The notes beneath the pieces were generated by a model that was not told the origin of the DNA, searched no databases, and was given only the letters and a program-made list of their open reading frames with translations. From assembly GCA_902520725.1 (NCBI GenBank), contig CABYPB010000009.1, forward strand, positions 1 to 45,960: a stretch of 45,960 bases of DNA, written 5' to 3'. Positions 6,233 through 15,413 of this stretch are shown here, piece by piece (position 1 is the stretch's first letter; every line of letters begins with the position of its first letter). This DNA is from an uncultured SAR86 cluster bacterium. GTDB taxonomy: Bacteria; Pseudomonadota; Gammaproteobacteria; Magnimaribacterales; D2472. The translations under genes were made by a program, and so were the position numbers.

Positions 6233-7351
6233 TTAAAACTCATTATTCATAATGTAGTTTTTTAAATGAACATTAATATTTTTCTCACTTAGACCAAATT
6301 CTTCTAGTGAATAAGTATGCTTTTGCTTTTTTATCATTGTTTGATTAATGAGATATTGTTTCATTTTATTTTCAGTTTCTATATCAATGTCTAAACCAAA
6401 TTTTTCATAAATACTCTTGATGGTTGAAAGGGGATTATTTATGAAACCTGTATAGCTTACGTCAATAATTTGTTCTTGAGAAAGATTTTGTTTTGCATCG
6501 ATACCTTTATTGAGACTATGCTGCCAAAAATCTAAAATAACATTACCTATTTCTTTGGTATTAACATTCTTTGAAAATGCAGACCTAATATTTTTTGCAA
6601 GGCTACAAAATGAACCAATGGATTCCATTGGAGATCTATGAATATTTATAAATTTTGCATTTGGATAAGTAGATAGTATCTCTGGTATGTGACCAATATG
6701 ACTTGGATCTTTCAATAACCACCTTTTTGGCCTACCGTTAAGTTCAAGCATCTGAAAAAACTTTTTATGCCACATAAACACAGATTCAAAACTACAATCT
6801 TTAAGATACTCAACATATTCGGGTACGTTCGCCATACACATATATACAAAACTTCTCACATTTATAGTTGCTAGAAGCTCACATTCTTCTGGAGTTTGTG
6901 CACGAATATGATGCATCGACCTTAATTTTGGAATTATTGTTCTAGCAAATTTTAGTTCAGCGTTTATTTTCCATTCTCGCTTTTTTATATCAAAATTACT
7001 TTTGGTTAGTGGTAACGGAGACATAATTTCCCAATATTTAGGAGACCTATGATTTTTATCCAGCGCTAAAAGATTAAACAAGAATGTTGTTCCAGACCTA
7101 GGGAGTCCCGTAACAAAAATAGGATCAGCAGGAGGAGGTAAAACCTTGTCTTTTATAAAGTTATGCAACTTACTTCTCATTTTAAGTCTATCTTTAAGTT
7201 GATTTTTAAATGCAAAGGCACCAAATAAGTTGAATAAATTATTCTTATGGGCTGAATCAATTAATATGTTTAGTGGTTCCGTATAGTCATCTTCTCCAAG
7301 TTGACCCTCAAGGTCTCCTAGCATCCCACTAGCTGTAACATTTCCAAACAT
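6233..7351 (-). CDS. Sulfotransferase family protein
   Basis: This 372-residue protein has the PAPS-dependent sulfotransferase fold. The 5'-phosphosulfate loop is FVTGLPRSGTTFLFN (about residues 79-93), and the 3'-phosphate-binding region is NAKFINIHRSPMESIGS around 235-250. It would move sulfuryl from PAPS to an unknown acceptor; bacterial members act on lipids, glycans or small molecules. No signal peptide is present. The ATG at 7351 is 53 bases from the divergent arsC start, so the two probably share an intergenic promoter region. It lies 34 bases before the cyclophilin gene on the same strand and may be co-transcribed with it. Substrate unknown. Confidence 0.9.
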   Translation of the reverse strand: MFGNVTASGMLGDLEGQLGEDDYTEPLNILIDSAHKNNLFNLFGAFAFKNQLKDRLKMRSKLHNFIKDKVLPPPADPIFVTGLPRSGTTFLFNLLALDKNHRSPKYWEIMSPLPLTKSNFDIKKREWKINAELKFARTIIPKLRSMHHIRAQTPEECELLATINVRSFVYMCMANVPEYVEYLKDCSFESVFMWHKKFFQMLELNGRPKRWLLKDPSHIGHIPEILSTYPNAKFINIHRSPMESIGSFCSLAKNIRSAFSKNVNTKEIGNVILDFWQHSLNKGIDAKQNLSQEQIIDVSYTGFINNPLSTIKSIYEKFGLDIDIETENKMKQYLINQTMIKKQKHTYSLEEFGLSEKNINVHLKNYIMNNEF

Positions 7352-7404: not shown

Positions 7405-7821
7405 ATGAATATTTTATTTTTATGTGTTGGGAACTCTGCTCGAAGCCAAATTGCTGAAGGTATTGCCAGGCAGATGTTTGGCAGGAGTCATACTATACAT
7501 AGCGCAGGCTCTAATCCTTCTAGATTTGTTCACCCTGGAGCAATCGATACCCTTAGCGACTTAGATATTGATATATCAAAAAATAAGCCCAAATCTATCG
7601 AAGATTTAGATACGAGCTTTATAAATAATTTAGATTTTGTTATTACACTATGTGCCGAAGAGATATGCCCAGTTCTGCCAACCAAGGCTAAATCATTGCG
7701 TTGGATGCATGAGGATCCTGCAAATAAAAAATTTAATGAAATAGAATCAAAACTAGCTTTTAAAAAGGTTAGAGATAATATTTATAACTTGCTAAAAAAA
7801 TTTATGATAGATAATCTATAG
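7405..7821 (+). CDS. arsC: Arsenate reductase, thioredoxin-coupled type (low-molecular-weight phosphatase fold)
   Basis: This 138-residue protein has the LMW-phosphatase P-loop CVGNSAR (Cys7 to Arg13) at the N-terminus and the Asp partner in HEDPA (Asp104). It also has two downstream cysteines in TLCAEEICPVLP (Cys83, Cys88), the redox pair that separates thioredoxin-dependent ArsC from tyrosine phosphatases. It would reduce arsenate to arsenite. The Cys83-Cys88 spacing is shorter than in the Gram-positive prototypes (82/89), so function is likely but not certain. No arsR or arsenite pump is next to it. It marks the left border of the ParB/helicase/methylase cassette. Confidence 0.85.
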   Translation: MNILFLCVGNSARSQIAEGIARQMFGRSHTIHSAGSNPSRFVHPGAIDTLSDLDIDISKNKPKSIEDLDTSFINNLDFVITLCAEEICPVLPTKAKSLRWMHEDPANKKFNEIESKLAFKKVRDNIYNLLKKFMIDNL

Positions 7822-7850: not shown

Positions 7851-8885
7851 ATGAAATATGAAATAGTAGATATCAACAAAATAAAGCTCGATCCAGAAAA
7901 TCCTAGGATTGCAGACAAACTAGGCAATAGAAAATTCGATTCAATTGAAGAACAAAATTCTTTAATTGCATCATACTTAAGAGGAGATACTGGGAATACT
8001 GAGGCAGGGCCAAGTTGTTTAGAATTAGAGAAGTCTATACATTCCTCAAAAGGAATCATAGAACCTATTATTCTTTTATCTGAAGGGGACGGAACATACC
8101 TTTGCATAGAGGGCAATACTAGACTGTCTATATATTTATCTTTTTCAAATGATCAGTATCCCAATGAAAAGGAATGGAAAAAAATACCTTCTCTGATTCA
8201 TGATGAGTTAACAAGATCTCAAATAGATGAATTGAGGCTCCAAGCTCATTTTGTTGGAAAAAAAGAGTGGACGCCATACGCAAAAGGGAGATACATAACC
8301 CAACTAGTCAAGAGCGGAACAAGTCTTGAAGATATAAAAAAAGTTGTAGGTGGGTCTGACTCAAAAACAAGGGCAAATTATTATGCATATAAAATTTTTA
8401 AAGAAAAGTATGAAACTAAGTTTGATCCAAAGAAAGATAATGTTTTCCCTGACAAAACAAAATTTTCAATGTTTACAACAGTTCCTGAAGGCGGCAAAAT
8501 TGCTATGGCACTTGAACTCAAAGGAAAAACAATGGATGACTATGCCCAATGGGTTAAAGATGACAAAGTAGGAAGCGCAAATGATGTGAGACGATTTTTA
8601 GAGAAAGTGCTATTAAACGATGAGGTTTATAGTGAGTTCAAAAAGAAGAACAAATCATTGCCTGATGTCATACCATTACTACCATCAGATTCAAACATAA
8701 ATAAAGTTACTTTGAAAGATGCTTCCATAACGCAGATCTGTGATGTCCTAAATGATACATTATTAGAACATAGAAAAGGTGGCTCACTATCTTCTATCAC
8801 AGATCAGGAAGGTCCAGGGGTTATAGATAGTATGAATTTGTTGCAGATTGAGATTAAATCTTCTCTTGAGTTGCTTGAAGAATAA
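7851..8885 (+). CDS. ParB/sulfiredoxin-fold domain protein (first of two in the cassette)
   Basis: This 344-residue protein opens with a ParB-like N-terminal domain. It shows INKIKLDPENPRI (about 8-20), then GIIEPIILL and a core motif YLCIEGNTRLSIYL with EGNTR at 87-91, the equivalent of the ParB/Srx nucleotide-contact motif. A helical region follows, starting with HFVGKKEWTPYAKGRY, which resembles the helix-turn-helix-bearing middle of ParB proteins; the C-terminus is unassigned. It shares NPRI, EGNTRL, W-x-x-IP and H-x-VG-x3-W-x-P with the protein at 10865, so they are distant paralogues. No ParA is nearby, so plasmid partition is unlikely. It is the first gene of a five-gene run. DNA binding or DNA modification control is inferred. 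Confidence 0.8.
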   Translation: MKYEIVDINKIKLDPENPRIADKLGNRKFDSIEEQNSLIASYLRGDTGNTEAGPSCLELEKSIHSSKGIIEPIILLSEGDGTYLCIEGNTRLSIYLSFSNDQYPNEKEWKKIPSLIHDELTRSQIDELRLQAHFVGKKEWTPYAKGRYITQLVKSGTSLEDIKKVVGGSDSKTRANYYAYKIFKEKYETKFDPKKDNVFPDKTKFSMFTTVPEGGKIAMALELKGKTMDDYAQWVKDDKVGSANDVRRFLEKVLLNDEVYSEFKKKNKSLPDVIPLLPSDSNINKVTLKDASITQICDVLNDTLLEHRKGGSLSSITDQEGPGVIDSMNLLQIEIKSSLELLEE

Positions 8886-8899
8886 TAAGCATAGCAATA

Positions 8900-9334
8900 A
8901 TGCAAAGCCATGATTTTTATACAACTCAAATTGTAATTTGGACAAAAAAATATTTTAATTTTCCTGGATTAGATATCGCTGATGACACCCAAGATACAAT
9001 CGCAGGTTGCAGACCAAATAAGGTAAGTGCAATCATTGATGGGGATATAAGAAGCTGTCTCCCAGATTTTTCAGCTAGAAATATAATTTATGAACCTAAT
9101 TTATTTATTCTGGGTGAAGCAAAGACTGCTGATGATTTTCTTACAAGACATAAAGATGCAGAAAATCAAATGAATGTCATGATTAATTTTTTAAAAAAAC
9201 AACCTAAACCAATTCTTGTGTATTCAATTCCAAACAAATTTGTCAAAAGGGTTCAAAATGAACTTCAAGAAAAAATAACGCACTTTAATGCTGCAAATGT
9301 TCAAGTTGAAGTAATAGATCAGTATTTTAAATAA
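8900..9334 (+). CDS. Putative small PD-(D/E)XK nuclease
   Basis: This 144-residue protein shows the core of the PD-(D/E)XK fold: SCLPDFSAR (Asp56), then a hydrophobic strand ending in LGEAKT (Glu73-x-Lys75). A helix with DAENQMNVM (Gln90) follows, and then a strand (PILVYSIP). The Asp, Glu-x-Lys, Gln order matches VRR-NUC and related nucleases. It would cut DNA in a Mg2+-dependent way. Spacing is tight: 14 bases after the ParB-like gene and two bases before the SNF2 helicase. Phages often pair or fuse such nucleases with SNF2 helicases, which fits. The assignment rests on motifs read by eye, so a nuclease remnant or non-catalytic homologue is possible. Confidence 0.6.
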   Translation: MQSHDFYTTQIVIWTKKYFNFPGLDIADDTQDTIAGCRPNKVSAIIDGDIRSCLPDFSARNIIYEPNLFILGEAKTADDFLTRHKDAENQMNVMINFLKKQPKPILVYSIPNKFVKRVQNELQEKITHFNAANVQVEVIDQYFK

Positions 9335-9336
9335 TT

Positions 9337-10800
9337 ATGAAGTTAATAAGAGAGCTGCCTGTATTAAATTTAAAAAAAGATGCTTTCCCATTCCAGCAGG
9401 ATGCTTTTAATTTAGTAAAAGATAAAGAGTATTTTGCAATATTTCATGAGCAAGGCTTAGGCAAAACAAAAATTGCTATTGACCTGTTATACCATTGGCT
9501 TAAAGAAGAAGTTGTTGAATCTGTTTTAATTGTTACAAAGAAAAGCCTTATTTCTAATTGGGGTAATGAATTGAAATTTCACGGTAATATGCACCCTATA
9601 ATTCTTTCAAGCAACAAGGCTGAAAATTTTGAAAGGATGACATTACCTGGCTATATTTATTTATGTAACTATGAAGCTATAAGAGGAAATACCGCATCCT
9701 TCAATAAATTTTTAAGGTTTAGAAAAGTGGGTATCATTCTTGATGAATCAACTCAGATTAAGACGCCATCTTCTAAAATTACTCAATCTCTTCATTTAAT
9801 TGCTGGAGAAGCAAAAAGAAGAATAATTATGACAGGCACGCCATTGTCTAACAGGCCTTATGATATTTGGTCTCAGATCTATTTTTTAGATTTTGGAGAA
9901 AGATTAGGAACTAATTTTGATGATTTCAAGGAAAGTTACGATTTAAGCAATGAACTTTCGAAAGATTATTCAGGAAGAATAATCTTTGAAAATAATTTAA
10001 AACTCCTTTCTAAAAAATTACAAGATTGCACTATTAGAGAAACAAAAAAGACCGCAGGCATTGAACTTCCTGGAAGAAGATTTATTGCTGAAACCATCGA
10101 AATGGAGTCCAAACAAAAATTATTGTATAAAAAACTTCAAGAGGAACTCTCAGCTCAAGTTATCAAAGATGGAAAATTGATTATCGAAGATGTCGAAGTT
10201 ATATTAAAAAGACTTATTCGTTTAGTACAGGTTTGTTCTAATCCTCGTTTAGTGGACGAACGTTATGATCAAGACACACCAAAACTGTTAAGTGCAAAAA
10301 AAATTATAGATAAGGCGAGTTTGGAGAATTCTAAAGTTATTGTATGGACAAATTTTGTAGATAACGTCGACTGGATTTGTAATTATTTCAATAATGAAGG
10401 CATCGTTGGCATTTCTGGTAATGTTAAGCCTAAAGAAAGAGATTATTTAATTAAAGAATTTAGGAATAATCAGGATATTAATATTTTAGTTGCAACTCCA
10501 GGAGTAGCAAGAGAGGGTTTAACACTGGTTGAAGCAAATTATTCTATCTTTTTTGATCGCAATTTTAGCCTGGAGAACTATTTACAGGCGCAAGATAGAA
10601 TTTATAGAATCTCTCAAACTAAGGATTGCTTTATATATAAACTTATTCATAAAGACTCTATAGATGAATGGGTAGATTCATTACTTGATGCCAAAGAGGT
10701 GGCAGCAAGATATGGTCAAGGAGATATCAACGAAGAGGAGTATAGAAGCAGAATAAGTTTTGATTTTGCTGAAATCCTCTCTGATATTTTACAATCTTAA
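9337..10800 (+). CDS. SNF2-family DEAD/DEAH-like helicase (phage-like)
   Basis: This 487-residue superfamily 2 protein has both RecA-like lobes. They carry Walker A HEQGLGKTKIA (about 37-47), Walker B LDEST (135-139) and motif III MTGTPLSNRP (165-174). In lobe 2 there is a motif V-like VATPGVAREGLTL, and motif VI reads QAQDRIYRISQ. The QxxxRxxRxxQ and LDES forms are typical of small SNF2 proteins from phages and mobile elements, without the accessory domains of chromatin remodellers or RapA. It probably translocates on double-stranded DNA using ATP. It starts two bases after the nuclease gene, so both are likely made together and may form one complex. Followed by a 64-base gap. Confidence 0.92.
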   Translation: MKLIRELPVLNLKKDAFPFQQDAFNLVKDKEYFAIFHEQGLGKTKIAIDLLYHWLKEEVVESVLIVTKKSLISNWGNELKFHGNMHPIILSSNKAENFERMTLPGYIYLCNYEAIRGNTASFNKFLRFRKVGIILDESTQIKTPSSKITQSLHLIAGEAKRRIIMTGTPLSNRPYDIWSQIYFLDFGERLGTNFDDFKESYDLSNELSKDYSGRIIFENNLKLLSKKLQDCTIRETKKTAGIELPGRRFIAETIEMESKQKLLYKKLQEELSAQVIKDGKLIIEDVEVILKRLIRLVQVCSNPRLVDERYDQDTPKLLSAKKIIDKASLENSKVIVWTNFVDNVDWICNYFNNEGIVGISGNVKPKERDYLIKEFRNNQDINILVATPGVAREGLTLVEANYSIFFDRNFSLENYLQAQDRIYRISQTKDCFIYKLIHKDSIDEWVDSLLDAKEVAARYGQGDINEEEYRSRISFDFAEILSDILQS

Positions 10801-10864
10801 AATATTTATCAATTAATGAAGTTTTTTGATATATTTAGTTAATAATTTTCACCTTTAATCAGAC

Positions 10865-12388
10865 ATGCCAATTACAGTTTACGATTCAGTTAGCAGAACT
10901 AAAAGTATAGAGGGCCAAAAATTTGATGTAACTAATGGATATGCAAATATTTCCGATCTTCAATTTTGGGATGGAAATCCAAGAATATATTCGTTATTAG
11001 AAAAAGAGAGACTAGAAAATACAATTTCAAAAAATGTAATTTTTGAAAAAATGAGACTTTTTCCAGACTTCGATAAACTCAAGGAACAAATAAGAAAAGA
11101 CGAGCAAATTAATGATCCTTTATGGGTTTGCAAAAATCCATTAACTAATGAGTACACAGTATATGAGGGTAATACTAGATTAGCAGTTGCCATTCAATTA
11201 TCTGAAAATGATAAGCCAAGCAAGAGAGCATCATGGAACAGAATTCCAGTCAATGTCCTACCAGACGGCACTAATGAAAAAGTTATTAAAAGACTTATAG
11301 GTTTAATACATCTGGTTGGCGTTAATGCATGGGCACCATTTGAAGCAGATGGTTATTACTATAGAGAGGTAGAGGATTTAAGAGAAGAAGGTGAAAGTCT
11401 TAAAGATGCTTGTAAAAGTGTTGGAAAAACGTATGGAGTAACACCAGGCAAGGTAGGGAAGGCACATAAGCTTGTTGGTTTTATGAATTATCATGGAATG
11501 GGTAGTAATGTCCAAAAAAATTATTACTCTTATTGGCAAACCATTAATGGAAGTGGTCCCCTAAATAAAGCTAGGAAAGTATTTAATGATCCTAATTTTC
11601 TTAGAGGCAAAGTAGAAAAACCTCGTAAAGATGCACTTGATAAACTCCTAATTAAAAAGGTTAAAGAGGGAACAGAAGTTCAAAGGGTTTCTGGTTCTTC
11701 ATCTGAAGGAACTGCATTTAGAGATGATATAAAGATAATTGCTGATGCTTTTAATGAAAATCAAGATGTAGAACTGATTGTAGATTTAATAGATGAGAAA
11801 ATAACAATACAAAGAGCAGTAGAGAGAGCAAAAGAGGGAGGTATCGGCAATACAGAATATGAAAAGGTAAAACAATTTGCTGATTGGCTATGCTCTACCC
11901 AAACCATGAAAAATTTACAAAACGCAGTTATAAATTTTCCTGAAATGAAAAGTGAAGTTTCTACGATTATTGAAAGATCAGAGATTGCAATGTTGAAGTT
12001 AAAAGAAAATTTGAAAAAGAAAGTACATATACTAGATAATACCAATCAAGAACATTTAATGTATAAAATTTGCATCTTAATGATGCTAGCTGACAAACTT
12101 CCGCATCCATCTGAAATCAAAAAAACCCATGATATTTTAGTATCTGAAAAGTGGCTTGCAGATCTAAATAGTCACGATATTGTAGATTCAATTGAACAGG
12201 TTTCTAGAGAAATATATCAATATAATGGAGTAGAACATGCAGCAAACATTTATGGAAAATTACTTACAAATATTAAGTTACAGAAAAAAGCGATTAAATT
12301 TATTGAAGAAATAATGATTTCTGATGGACTAATAAAAAAAGAAGAGACAAAGTTAATAAAACAATTAAGAACCCTGTGGAATTTATAA
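10865..12388 (+). CDS. Long ParB/sulfiredoxin-fold protein (second of two in the cassette)
   Basis: This 507-residue protein has a ParB-like N-terminal domain with FWDGNPRIYSLL (about 35-45), INDPLWV (82-88) and EYTVYEGNTRLAVAIQLS (96-113). A conserved HLVGVNAWAPFEADGYY (149-165) follows. It is clearly related to the 344-residue protein at 7851 but has a longer insert before the EGNTR motif and about 180 extra C-terminal residues. That tail is helical and includes a region reminiscent of a coiled coil (around 365-400). No Shine-Dalgarno is evident before the ATG. It follows a 64-base gap that could hold its own promoter and is three bases upstream of the methylase gene. Role unknown; DNA recognition or specificity is an inference. 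Confidence 0.75.
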   Translation: MPITVYDSVSRTKSIEGQKFDVTNGYANISDLQFWDGNPRIYSLLEKERLENTISKNVIFEKMRLFPDFDKLKEQIRKDEQINDPLWVCKNPLTNEYTVYEGNTRLAVAIQLSENDKPSKRASWNRIPVNVLPDGTNEKVIKRLIGLIHLVGVNAWAPFEADGYYYREVEDLREEGESLKDACKSVGKTYGVTPGKVGKAHKLVGFMNYHGMGSNVQKNYYSYWQTINGSGPLNKARKVFNDPNFLRGKVEKPRKDALDKLLIKKVKEGTEVQRVSGSSSEGTAFRDDIKIIADAFNENQDVELIVDLIDEKITIQRAVERAKEGGIGNTEYEKVKQFADWLCSTQTMKNLQNAVINFPEMKSEVSTIIERSEIAMLKLKENLKKKVHILDNTNQEHLMYKICILMMLADKLPHPSEIKKTHDILVSEKWLADLNSHDIVDSIEQVSREIYQYNGVEHAANIYGKLLTNIKLQKKAIKFIEEIMISDGLIKKEETKLIKQLRTLWNL

Positions 12389-12391
12389 AAA

Positions 12392-13234
12392 GTGTTACTT
12401 AAATGGGCGGGTGGTAAGAGTTGGTTAACTAATAATCATAAACAAATTTTTCATAGTCAAGAAAGTTTAATTTCGAGAGCCTTTAATAATCATCCTTCAA
12501 TTGAATACAAAAGATACATAGAGCCTTTTTTAGGAGGAGGCGCCGTCTTTAAATATTTAAAACCTGTAAATAAATCAATACTTTCAGATATTAATGATGA
12601 ACTAATTGGTTTTTACAATTGTTTAAAATACAAACCTAAGGAGCTTTATTTGTGCACTCAGAATCATATGATGTCTCACTGTGAAGATTATTATTATGAA
12701 ATTCGCGCAAAAAATAATCTGGAGGATGAAATCAAGAAAGCTTCCAGATTTTTGTATTTAAATCGAACTTGTTACAACGGCATTTATAGAGTAAATAGCA
12801 AAGGTCAATTCAATGTTCCAATTGGAGATTCTAAAGACTTTAATGCCTCTGAGAAAGAATTCATTAAGTATAGCAAGATGCTTTCTAAAGCAGAAATAAA
12901 AAATGAAGACTTTCGTATTAGCATTAATAAGGCAAAAGAAAATGATCTAATTTTTGTAGATCCACCTTATGTAACAAAGTCTAATGAAAGCTCTTTTGAT
13001 ATGTATTCTGCAAATCAATTTGATTGGAGCGCTCAAGAAGAGTTATCCGAAATTTTAGAGGCCAAGAATAAAGAAGGCTCTCACATAATTGTTACTAACA
13101 TCAATGATAAAGATATTTGTAAGTTATATGATAAAAAAAATGGATGGCAGCATAAGCCAATTAATAGAGCAAATGTTATGTCATATGACTCACAGGGAGT
13201 AAAGTATAAAGAGGTTGTAATTTCTAATATTTAG
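12392..13234 (+). CDS. Dam-family DNA adenine N6-methyltransferase (D12 class)
   Basis: Translation probably starts at GTG 12392, giving LLKWAGGKSWL right at the N-terminus, where Dam proteins carry the AdoMet motif WAGGK. Other motifs are IEPFLGGGAVF (motif I, about 43-53), SDINDELI and the target-recognition block NRTCYNGIYRVNSKGQFNVP (124-143). The catalytic DPPY lies at 190-193. At 280 residues it is complete. The recognition block resembles that of GATC-type Dam/DpnM enzymes, but the target cannot be fixed from sequence. It starts three bases after the ParB-like gene, so the two are coupled. Within the cassette it may mark self DNA. Its stop is 43 bases from the 3' end of tRNA-Asn. Confidence 0.93.
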   Translation: MLLKWAGGKSWLTNNHKQIFHSQESLISRAFNNHPSIEYKRYIEPFLGGGAVFKYLKPVNKSILSDINDELIGFYNCLKYKPKELYLCTQNHMMSHCEDYYYEIRAKNNLEDEIKKASRFLYLNRTCYNGIYRVNSKGQFNVPIGDSKDFNASEKEFIKYSKMLSKAEIKNEDFRISINKAKENDLIFVDPPYVTKSNESSFDMYSANQFDWSAQEELSEILEAKNKEGSHIIVTNINDKDICKLYDKKNGWQHKPINRANVMSYDSQGVKYKEVVISNI

Positions 13235-13277
13235 CTAAGAACTATTTTTTTGCAACTGAGACACATACTTCTCTATA

Positions 13278-13352
13278 TGGCTCCTCAGGTTGGGATCGAA
13301 CCAACGACCAATTGATTAACAGTCAACTGCTCTACCGCTGAGCTACTGAGGA
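13278..13352 (-). tRNA. tRNA-Asn (GTT)
   Basis: The 75-base cloverleaf includes an encoded CCA: acceptor TCCTCAG pairs with CTGAGGA, the D-arm is AGCTCAGCGGTAGAGC, and the anticodon loop CTGTTAA gives GTT. The T-loop is GGTTCGATCCC. The closest counterpart I know is E. coli tRNA-Asn. Its 3' end faces the ParB/helicase/methylase cassette, the side on which tRNA-targeting elements integrate. Confidence 0.97.
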
Positions 13353-13400: not shown

Positions 13401-15413
13401 ATGACAAATAAGTTGCTAGAAGTAGTGTCTGAATTTGAGCCGGCTGGGTCACAACCAGAAGCCATTAATAACTTAGTCTCAGGTCTTCAGGATGGCTTAT
13501 TACATCAAACTTTACTTGGAGTCACTGGATCAGGCAAAACCTATACCATGGCAAAGGTCATTGAGGAAACTCAAAGACCTGCAATAATCATGGCACATAA
13601 TAAAACTCTTGCTGCTCAGTTATATGGTGAGTTTAGGGATTTCTTCCCTAACAACTCTGTGGAATATTTTGTTTCATACTATGATTACTATCAACCTGAA
13701 GCATATGTCCCAACCTCCGATACCTATATAGCTAAAGATGCTTCTATTAATGAACATATAGAACAAATGCGTTTATCGGCAACAAAAGCATTAATAGAAA
13801 GAAAAGACACAATTGTTATTGCCACTGTTTCCTCAATTTATGGTCTAGGAGCTCCAGAATCATATCTTAAGATGGTAGTTCACTTAGATAGAGGAGACAC
13901 CATTTCACAACGTGATTTAGTTCTTAGACTTTCAGCTCTTCAATATACAAGAAATGATTTAGATTTTAGAAGGGCAACATTTAGAGTTAGAGGTGACACA
14001 GTTGATGTCTATCCAGCAGATTCAGACAAAGAAGCCTTACGAATAGAATTCTTTGGCGATGAAATAGAAAGGCTGTCCTGGTTTGATCCATTGACAGGAG
14101 TGGTTATTAATGAAATTCCTAGAGCAACAATATTTCCAAAAACTCATTACGTCACTCCAAGGGAAACTGTAACTAATTGTATTCCAGATATAAAAGATGA
14201 ATTGAAATCACGTCTAGAATTTTTAAAAGATAATAATAAGTTAGTCGAAGCACAACGCCTTCAAGAAAGAACCACCTACGATATAGAAATGATGAGAGAG
14301 CTTGGCTATTGTCAAGGAATTGAAAATTATTCTAGATATCTTAGTGGAAGGAACCCAGGAGAGTCACCTCCATGTTTGTTTGATTACATTCCTAAAGATG
14401 CAATCGTCTTTATTGACGAATCTCATGTATCGGTACCTCAAATAGGAGCAATGTACAAAGGAGATCGATCAAGAAAAGAAACTCTTGTTGAATATGGTTT
14501 CAGGTTACCGTCTGCAATGGACAATAGGCCATTGAAATTCGAAGAATGGGAGATGCTTGCGCCTCAAAGAATTTATGTCTCAGCGACTCCAAGTAGATAT
14601 GAAAACGAACATCAAGATAATCTTGTTGAACTAATCATTAGGCCAACTGGCTTAACTGATCCAGATGTTGAAATTAGACCAGCTCTTACACAAATAGATG
14701 ATGTTATTGGTGAATGCAATGACAGAGTCGCAATGAAAGAAAGAGTATTAATTACAACGTTAACTAAACGAATGGCTGAGGATCTAACGGATTATCTAAA
14801 CGAAAATAATATTTCTGCTAGATATATGCATTCTGATATTGATACCGTTGAGAGAGTAGAAATAATTAGAGATTTAAGGCTTGGAAAATTTGATGTTTTA
14901 GTAGGTATTAACTTATTAAGGGAAGGTCTAGATATTCCTGAAGTAAGTTTAGTTGCAATCCTAGATGCAGATAAAGAGGGCTTTTTAAGGTCTGATACAA
15001 CACTAATACAAACTATTGGAAGGGCAGCCAGAAATCTTAGAGGCAGAGCAATACTTTATGCTGATAAAGTAACTGGCTCTATGCAAAGAGCAATTGATGA
15101 AACTGATAGAAGAAGAGCCATTCAAGAAAAATATAACGCCAAGAATGGCATAAGTCCAAAATCTATTTCTACAAAAGTCAAAGATATTATGGAGGGTGCA
15201 AGAGTAATTAAAGGCAATACTAAAAAGAAAAAAGAAGATATTGAAAAAATTGTTAGCTTTAAAATTCTTGATGATACTGTCGATAATTTAACAATTACTC
15301 TTCAAAAACTTGAAGATGAAATGTTTTCATTAGCTAAAAAAATGGAATTTGAAAAAGCAGCTATCTGTAGAGATAAGATAAAGTTTCTTAAAAGAAAGTT
15401 AATTGATCTTTAG
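13401..15413 (+). CDS. uvrB: Excinuclease ABC subunit B
   Basis: This 670-residue helicase-like protein matches UvrB in length and motif order. It has Walker A GVTGSGKT (40-47), the beta-hairpin region [12 protein letters not shown] that inserts between DNA strands, DESH as Walker B, and YVSATPS in motif III. Motif VI is QTIGRAARN, and the C-terminal UVR coiled coil that contacts UvrC lies at about 630-670. It verifies damage and hands it to UvrC in nucleotide excision repair. No LexA box lies in the 48 bases between tRNA-Asn and the ATG, unlike E. coli uvrB. Its last 26 bases overlap the convergent transglycosylase gene. Confidence 0.98.

Follow-up and report, generated by a model that had tools for sequence, protein, structure and literature searches.

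What do five closely packed genes on a contig of an uncultured SAR86 cluster bacterium do, and do they belong together? The genes lie on one strand of a 45,960-nucleotide stretch (GCA_902520725.1, contig CABYPB010000009.1, from a 1.0 Mb assembly that is 78.5% complete; the whole stretch is referred to as the window) and encode a ParB-type protein (ParB1), a small nuclease candidate, a SNF2 ATPase, a second ParB-type protein (ParB2) and a Dam-type methylase. The initial annotation of this DNA had described them as a five-gene cassette with gaps of 14, 2, 64 and 3 bases, located between arsC and tRNA-Asn. The coordinates, gaps and borders agree with our analysis (Table 1), and four of the genes are conserved in order in unrelated records, but the fifth, Dam, is separable. 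Sequence comparison thus indicates that the conserved unit is ParB1-nuclease-SNF2-ParB2, plus a separable Dam. We consider this four-gene core to be, on balance, a mobile DNA-attack module, most likely serving anti-phage or anti-plasmid defence, that has entered a SAR86 hotspot next to tRNA-Asn. Comparison or modelling supports the gene order, the co-divergence, the position in a hotspot, the separability of Dam, the ParB2 fold and the active-site motif of the nuclease.

Conservation and co-divergence of the four-gene core

The same gene order is found in 15 loci, namely in two SAR86-family genomes, five alphaproteobacterial plasmids and eight IMG/VR contigs; conservation of the order in other genomes had been proposed as a check on the cassette. 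Two further loci are divergent, one on a Bradyrhizobium plasmid with three ParB-like genes (L052) and one on an IMG/VR contig (L083). When PLSDB plasmids were searched by tblastn, the window ParB2 identified seven records, ParB1 the same seven, and SNF2 (at E ≤ 1e-30) the same seven and, at 30% identity, one record from Burkholderia in which the core is not among the annotated neighbours. Six of the seven records were examined, the seventh (NZ_CP051294.1) being listed as the same strain as L049; five have all four genes in window order and the sixth is L052.

IMG/VR was scanned with alignments that contained no viral sequences. ParB2 retrieved eight contigs, all of which (8/8) carry the four genes in order. 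ParB1 retrieved nine, comprising seven of these eight, the divergent L083 and a weak match (L084, 27 bits) that was left out of the counts; the remaining contig of the eight (L070/L094), although outside the ParB1 matches, does carry ParB1. SNF2 retrieved the eight, L083 (34% identical) and 11 SNF2 proteins at 22–32% identity, none of which (0/11) has a labelled ParB or nuclease partner in flanks of up to 6 kb. The association of the core genes rests on the plasmid searches and these scans. Enlarged ParB1 and ParB2 alignments gave the same eight contigs for both proteins, partly by construction since the contigs' own proteins had been included. Scans of viral contigs with single ParB2 or SNF2 sequences yielded no confirmed relatives (0 each), and a genome-contig scan with a two-sequence ParB2 alignment found only the contig of G008 itself. 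G008 is a SAR86 genome of another genus that has the four genes at the same site; it and the window's own genome are the two of 107 family genomes in which ParB2 was detected.

Pairwise distance matrices of the four core proteins, computed for the 15 same-order loci (L052 and L083 left out), correlate with r of 0.90–0.96, a value reached in none of 5000 permutations. With the window and two rhizobia left out (n = 12) the correlation is 0.83–0.91, again with 0/5000 permutations as high.

A radical-SAM gene accompanies the core in 15/17 loci and a GHKL gene in 14/17. One radical-SAM call is weak (L088/L101: a CxxxCxxC motif, a weak profile match and a blastp E of 6e-9 to another member of the set). 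A DGQHR gene (DndB/DpdB-like) occurs in 8/17 loci, these being six plasmids and two IMG/VR contigs. The pair of radical-SAM and GHKL (HSP90-like) genes is seen in L049–L054 and L068–L083, and rhizobia add a further pair made of PIN_8 and a second GHKL. At the two SAR86 loci no radical SAM, GHKL or DGQHR was found in the window or in the G008 flanks examined. Radical-SAM and GHKL distances correlate with each other (r = 0.91) over the 12 loci used for these tests, whereas their correlation with the core is weaker: r is 0.38–0.61 at n = 12 (3 to 116 of 5000 permutations as high) and 0.16–0.47 at n = 10, with two rhizobia left out (55 to 938 of 5000). Radical SAM and GHKL were therefore rejected as core members, and the data fit a second module that is often found beside the core and has been partly reshuffled against it.

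Protein assignments

The SNF2 ATPase matches both of its Pfam families above the curated cut-offs and has conserved helicase motifs, as expected of the SNF2/RAD54 group. SNF2 proteins translocate on duplex DNA. The protein had been called phage-like, and it does match phrog_62 (E 2.8e-99); yet SNF2 proteins of isolate phages retrieved at E ≤ 1e-30 (six records) are just 27–29% identical to it, compared with 34–66% within the core family. In IMG/VR the corresponding values are 34–46% for core SNF2s and 22–32% for other viral SNF2s.

ParB1, ParB2 and the nuclease are below curated cut-offs or unmatched and were therefore examined by alignment and structure, with models for ParB2 and the nuclease. 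ParB is a CTP-switched sliding clamp in chromosome and plasmid segregation, and ParB, KorB and Noc load and slide on DNA under nucleoside triphosphate (NTP) control. ParB1 matches ParB_N (PF02195) weakly (E 0.086, below cut-off), whereas the Pfam scan gave no ParB family match for ParB2. An EGN[TS]R motif, which we take to be the ParB nucleotide-binding box (the names of NPR and other motifs are used in the same assumed sense), is invariant in 15 ParB1 and 15 ParB2 sequences. The ParB1 profile matches Noc (E 0.004) and ParB1 cross-matches the ParB2 profile; ParB1 is assigned on its sequence. The model of ParB2 has a mean predicted local distance difference test score (pLDDT) of 73, good in the N-terminal part and poor at the C-terminus, where the TerB-like part has block means of 36–56 from residue 401 onward. 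It superposes on ParB with a CTP analogue (7bnr; Z 11.7, 1.8 Å, 94 residues), on KorB (8qa9; Z 11.3, 4.1 Å, 204 residues) and on pNOB8 ParB-N (5k5d; Z 10.9), with a best Foldseek E of 2.4e-4; a sequence search of solved structures with the ParB2 profile returned nothing relevant. The model thus places ParB2 in the ParB superfamily, with a predicted ParB/KorB-like N-terminal CTPase fold followed by a helix-turn-helix (HTH). Of the two EGNTR-containing ParB/Srx-fold proteins described initially, the motif stands for both and the fold is modelled for ParB2, while the family match of ParB1 is weak. Both would probably use CTP. In G008, the ParB part and the TerB-like part of ParB2 are encoded by two open reading frames (ORFs) that overlap by ATGA (L006:6107-7647), the TerB-like one being 121 amino acids long (L006:6107-6472); in the window the two are fused.

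The small gene has no Pfam match, and searching solved structures with its profile gave nothing relevant. D56, E73, K75 and Q90 are invariant across 13 aligned sequences, and the first three correspond to the D...ExK active site of the PD-(D/E)XK superfamily. The model (pLDDT 90.9) has mostly PD-(D/E)XK proteins as its top structural matches, all with Z below 8 and hence middling: CdiA-CT (Z 7.5, 3.2 Å, 107 residues), BspD6I subunits (Z 7.3), and then Can2, EcoT38I, FokI and EcoP15I (Z 6.7 for FokI and EcoP15I). Clamp-loader subunits also match, ranked lower (Z 5.8). Since these Z values do not reach 8 and the Foldseek E values are all 1e-3 or higher, the assignment relies on the invariant residues, with the fold as support. 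This agrees with the earlier proposal of a small Glu-x-Lys nuclease, and we regard the gene product as a PD-(D/E)XK-type nuclease candidate whose fold is moderately supported. At 144 amino acids it would be a bare catalytic domain, so that targeting must come from its partners.

Table 1. Features of the window at and around the five-gene locus.
Feature	Coordinates	Strand	Evidence and remarks
Sulfotransferase-like gene (named by eye)	6233..7351	-	Left flank of the hotspot; adjoins arsC at the site in relatives
arsC-like low-molecular-weight phosphatase	7405..7821	+	PF01451 E 2.4e-16; left border of the insert
ParB1, ParB/Srx-type, 344 amino acids, NPR and EGNTR motifs	7851..8885	+	Alignment; matches PDC-M38A and PD-Lambda-5_A weakly
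Small PD-(D/E)XK-type nuclease candidate, 144 amino acids	8900..9334	+	D56, E73, K75, T76, D79, Q90 invariant in 13 members; model
Stand-alone SNF2 ATPase/translocase, 487 amino acids	9337..10800	+	PF00176 E 2.8e-27, PF00271 E 5.7e-16; conserved helicase motifs
ParB2, ParB CTPase-like domain, HTH and C-terminal TerB-like extension, 507 amino acids	10865..12388	+	Alignment, structure model
TerB-like C-terminal part of ParB2, residues 402-503	12068..12373	+	PF05099 E 8.2e-4, below cut-off
Predicted Dam-type (D12, DpnM-like) N6-adenine methylase, GTG start	12392..13234	+	PF02086 E 4.1e-47, TIGR00571
tRNA-Asn	13278..13352	-	ARAGORN; right border of the insertion hotspot
uvrB	13401..15413	+	Right flank; served to locate the site in the genus

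The Dam methylase is a separable neighbour

The D12/Dam methylase scores above the curated cut-offs of PF02086 and TIGR00571; the initial annotation had described it as a DPPY methyltransferase. Its closest solved structures are DpnM (2dpm) and also EcoDam, and methylation of GATC is therefore predicted. The GTG start lies in the ParB2 frame, separated from it by the stop codon and one codon (12386-12394); translational coupling to ParB2 by reinitiation is possible.

Such an arrangement would suit a true five-gene restriction-modification system, in which Dam marks host GATC and a complex of ParB, SNF2 and nuclease cuts unmarked DNA. The in-frame start three bases after ParB2 and the resemblance to DpnM speak for it, as does the presence of a full-length D12 methylase in both core carriers of the SAR86 family, compared with only 4/105 other genomes at ≥ 85 bits (PF02086 is matched in 18/107 genomes at E ≤ 0.001, 13 of them over the cut-off and six at ≥ 85 bits). 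ParB-like proteins also stand directly beside D12 methylases in two unrelated genomes (L107:2310-4316 and L046:1459-3272, PD-lambda-5-like pairs), and in one core locus an MT-A70-type adenine methylase-like ORF, identified by eye, lies ∼1 kb past the radical-SAM gene beside the core (L090:18316-19074); around the core, the search covered methylases of the D12 type. However, G008 has the core at the same site with no adjacent Dam, its own D12 gene being of another type (by eye) and located ∼57 kb away among housekeeping-like genes. Conversely, in a genome of another genus (G093) a Dam of 67% identity stands by itself between arsC and tRNA-Asn/uvrB. No other core locus matches this Dam in the stretches examined, using a profile made from the single window protein, and GATC occurs 140 times in the window compared with an expectation of 139 (mononucleotide) or 168 (Markov). 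Of the features of a type II restriction-modification system, a methylase gene is present, but methylase and nuclease do not stay together. We therefore think a five-gene restriction-modification system unlikely, and the single five-gene operon was rejected as the conserved unit, Dam being separable in G008 and G093.

These comparisons indicate that Dam is a separable, separately mobile passenger, and they do not support the integral self-marking role proposed in the initial annotation. As a neighbour it may add protection or simply share the hotspot. A loose functional link between core and Dam may remain, given that both carriers hold a D12 gene and that D12 was the methylase type searched around the core.

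An insertion hotspot at tRNA-Asn/uvrB

The uvrB query matched 34/34 genomes of the genus, some weakly or in part, and 30 uvrB loci were examined. Contig ends truncate five of them, and the 25 resolved sites comprise 18 empty ones (143–206 bases between arsC and uvrB), one with a small insert (552 bases) and six, including the window, with a large insert, defined by the lack of arsC within the 1.5 kb examined. Compared with 11 empty sites, the window loses homology at ∼7803–7815, the end of arsC, and regains it at ∼13274–13277, at the tRNA.

The cargo at the other sites, judged from ten scanned proteins, comprises DruA and HATPase (L037, G064), ResIII helicase and AAA ATPase (L038, G066), a C5 methylase (L039, G061), a DUF4116 set (L041, G079) and a set of Z1, HATPase and C5 methylase (L042, G078) that we take to be 'mza-like'. 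ArsC was reached in L037, L038 and L039, but not within the examined stretches of L041 and L042. In all five other large inserts, as in G008 and G093, tRNA-Asn lies between the cargo and uvrB. Since relatives hold the core without Dam, Dam without the core, Druantia-like or C5-methylase genes, or nothing, the tRNA-Asn/uvrB site is an insertion hotspot in SAR86. The defence-island setting and the presence or absence of the locus among close relatives had been suggested for checking, and both come out in favour of the proposal: the site varies and carries defence-type genes in other genomes.

The remaining window ORFs resemble ordinary chromosomal genes by eye (the family-library scans covered the five locus proteins and arsC), and profiles for the core proteins, radical SAM, GHKL, DGQHR, PIN, Dam and TerB matched none of them.

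Mobile carriers of the core

The plasmid carriers include conjugative types. In 6/8 IMG/VR contigs no more than 2 kb separates the core, or the radical-SAM/GHKL pair beside it, from a contig end. Three contigs have recombination genes close to the core, namely a tyrosine integrase in L095 and serine recombinases in L069 and L074. Phage genes were looked for among ten proteins from five contigs with PHROGs and ten from five contigs with Pfam: the core of L080/L071 has phage tail and lysis genes next to it and a phage DNA-transfer-type protein was found in L078, while 4/10 of the flanking proteins scanned with PHROGs had no match. Phrog_2, presumably the large terminase, was matched in 1/9 viral records, which may be fragments. 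In L088 (6222-7793 and 13867-15033) a reverse transcriptase-like gene (phrog_1423) precedes the core by ∼2 kb, and ParB2 is followed immediately by an S24-peptidase-like gene. The context fits a core carried as cargo by mobile elements better than a module for phage replication.

Carriage on plasmids, some of them conjugative, and on contigs with integrase, recombinase or phage genes would also suit a role in mobile-element self-help or counter-defence, as proposed for P1 DarB/DdrB, whereby the core would protect or process the DNA of an element entering the cell instead of attacking it. Element-borne polyvalent proteins, P1 DarB/DdrB among them, do combine SNF2, adenine methylase and ParB-type domains (PMC5512222). 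By contrast, no element genes were recognized by eye around the window locus, the site holds defence-type genes in relatives, and ParB2 is unmatched in isolate phages. We judge self-help to be rather improbable.

The initial annotation had offered a stranded phage replication or recombination module, built around nuclease and SNF2, as an alternative. The phrog_62 match of SNF2 and the eight IMG/VR contigs with the core in order point in this direction, and the finding of the same genes inside intact prophages had been named as evidence against a defence cassette; at least one of the eight contigs has tail and lysis genes beside the core, but no intact prophage is demonstrated. ParB2, however, has no match among 50,697 phage records (E ≤ 1e-3; ParB1 matches weakly in six isolate-phage records), the surroundings in the window look chromosomal by eye, core and other viral SNF2s are set apart by the identity gap given above, the 11 distant viral SNF2s are without labelled partners in flanks of up to 6 kb and phrog_2 was seen in a single viral record of nine that may be fragments. 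The phage module was rejected on the first, third and fourth of these points and is very improbable. Equally hard to credit is a plasmid or island maintenance set of ParB-like partition proteins with accessory DNA enzymes: the ParB2 model does resemble KorB and ParB, several carriers are plasmids and one of them (L051) has an annotated ParA gene ∼6 kb away, but there is no ParA among the core genes, the copies in two SAR86 genomes lie between housekeeping genes and, to our knowledge, PD-(D/E)XK nucleases and SNF2 proteins are not partition components.

Discussion

We infer that the products of the core form a complex and cut DNA in defence. In such a mechanism ParB1 and ParB2 would load onto DNA under the control of an NTP switch, probably CTP, and so find or enclose the invading molecule, and the SNF2 ATPase would move along the DNA and remodel the complex. 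The nuclease, being too small for a specificity domain of its own, would be positioned and licensed by the other three and would then cut. Outside SAR86 the radical-SAM and GHKL pair, at times with a DGQHR protein, is usually found next to the core genes. The initial picture of a compact self-marking and DNA-attack system is thus retained in its second half, the unit of nuclease, motor and ParB proteins being coherent and conserved, but self-marking by Dam is not.

Several observations weigh against a defence core of this kind. Its function is predicted here from genes and models. The core is rare (2/107 family genomes, including the window's own), and scans of 398 Pseudomonadota and 385 Alphaproteobacteria genomes revealed no further core around the ParB hits, which came from 12 genomes (the window's own among them) and two genomes, respectively; the hits of the class, phylum and alphaproteobacterial scans belong to other ParB families and have no core in the flanks examined. 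The distance-matrix correlations are without control for host relatedness. With Z of at most 7.5 and every Foldseek E at 1e-3 or above, structural support for the nuclease is middling, and in one of the 15 same-order loci (L092/L099) SNF2 is present as two overlapping ORFs. Plasmid and phage carriage is also compatible with mobile-element self-help. Outside SAR86, radical SAM is present in 15/15 loci (13 same-order, two divergent) and GHKL in 14/15; since both SAR86 loci are without the two genes nearby, the SAR86 version could be a reduced remnant.

A bolder proposal, which we put forward tentatively and regard as doubtful, is that the core represents a new restriction-like immunity. Here two ParB-type NTP-gated clamps, and not a recognition subunit or a cognate methylase, would identify the invader and license SNF2 and nuclease, with interchangeable partner modules (radical SAM plus GHKL, Dam, or none). 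If true, a conserved mobile core of two ParBs, a nuclease and a SNF2 ATPase would extend the CTP switch to immunity and raise a testable question, namely by what means a cell with no obligate methylase keeps its own DNA from attack. In practical terms, ParB1-nuclease-SNF2-ParB2 is a clear searchable gene signature, and it points to the tRNA-Asn/uvrB hotspot of SAR86.

Comparison with known systems

The five proteins do not make up a complete system in PADLOC (2023 release), and no paper naming the gene set was found in the literature searched, which lay mostly outside subscription journals and bioRxiv; this agrees with the initial view that the locus has no named counterpart. Related in parts is PD-lambda-5, described by Vassallo et al., 2022 (PMC9519451) as a compacted prophage version of an RM+Abi system, whose components, as inferred from PADLOC matches, are a ParB-like protein and a D12-type methylase. 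ParB1, however, matches PD-Lambda-5_A with only 18.5 bits over residues 8-164, ParB2 has no PADLOC match at E ≤ 1, and the window Dam scores 52.5 bits with PD-Lambda-5_B against 218.6 bits with the general type II methylase model. The window core moreover adds SNF2, the nuclease and a second ParB. The PADLOC candidate PDC-M38A weakly matches ParB1 of the window (E 1.2e-5) and both ParB1 (2.6e-5) and ParB2 (8e-8) of Mesorhizobium, but PDC-M38 is a 715-position model of one long protein and the window ParB2 is unmatched.

Zorya, DISARM, Dpd and BREX-type systems likewise have a SNF2-type ATPase in a multi-gene defence set, and the window SNF2 matches ZorD and DpdE. Among the five proteins, however, there is no ZorA or ZorB and the ZorD match covers only the helicase part; the DISARM set of DrmA, DrmB and DrmC is missing, with only helicase-level matches to DrmD and DrmA, and so are DpdA and the partner genes of Dpd, with only DpdE helicase matches. 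Membership of PD-lambda-5, Zorya, DISARM or Dpd was rejected on these PADLOC results. With Dnd and Dpd the core shares its frequent DGQHR companion (as DndB, DpdB; 8/17 loci), but nine Mesorhizobium and Roseomonas proteins gave no other Dnd or Dpd match in PADLOC and DGQHR is missing in SAR86. P1 DarB and DdrB are giant phage-borne proteins, in contrast to the separate genes and small nuclease of the core.

An alphaproteobacterium-related genome (G1114) has genes for DUF4365 (below cut-off), SNF2, a ParB-like protein, a C5 methylase and an Mrr_cat nuclease side by side (L109:5621-11755), and we consider this set of ParB, SNF2, Mrr nuclease and C5 methylase a related, parallel arrangement. For a ParB/Srx-type NTPase that works with a nuclease there is a precedent in GmrSD: in the type IV restriction systems GmrSD and BrxU such an NTPase (DUF262) is coupled to a nuclease (DUF1524 HNH) (PMC10952713), a logic that the core would share by analogy. 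The core differs in its ParB family, in a nuclease of PD-(D/E)XK type and not HNH, in having separate proteins and in the added SNF2. Pending experiment, the core is best classed as a variant among multi-gene defence systems that target DNA.

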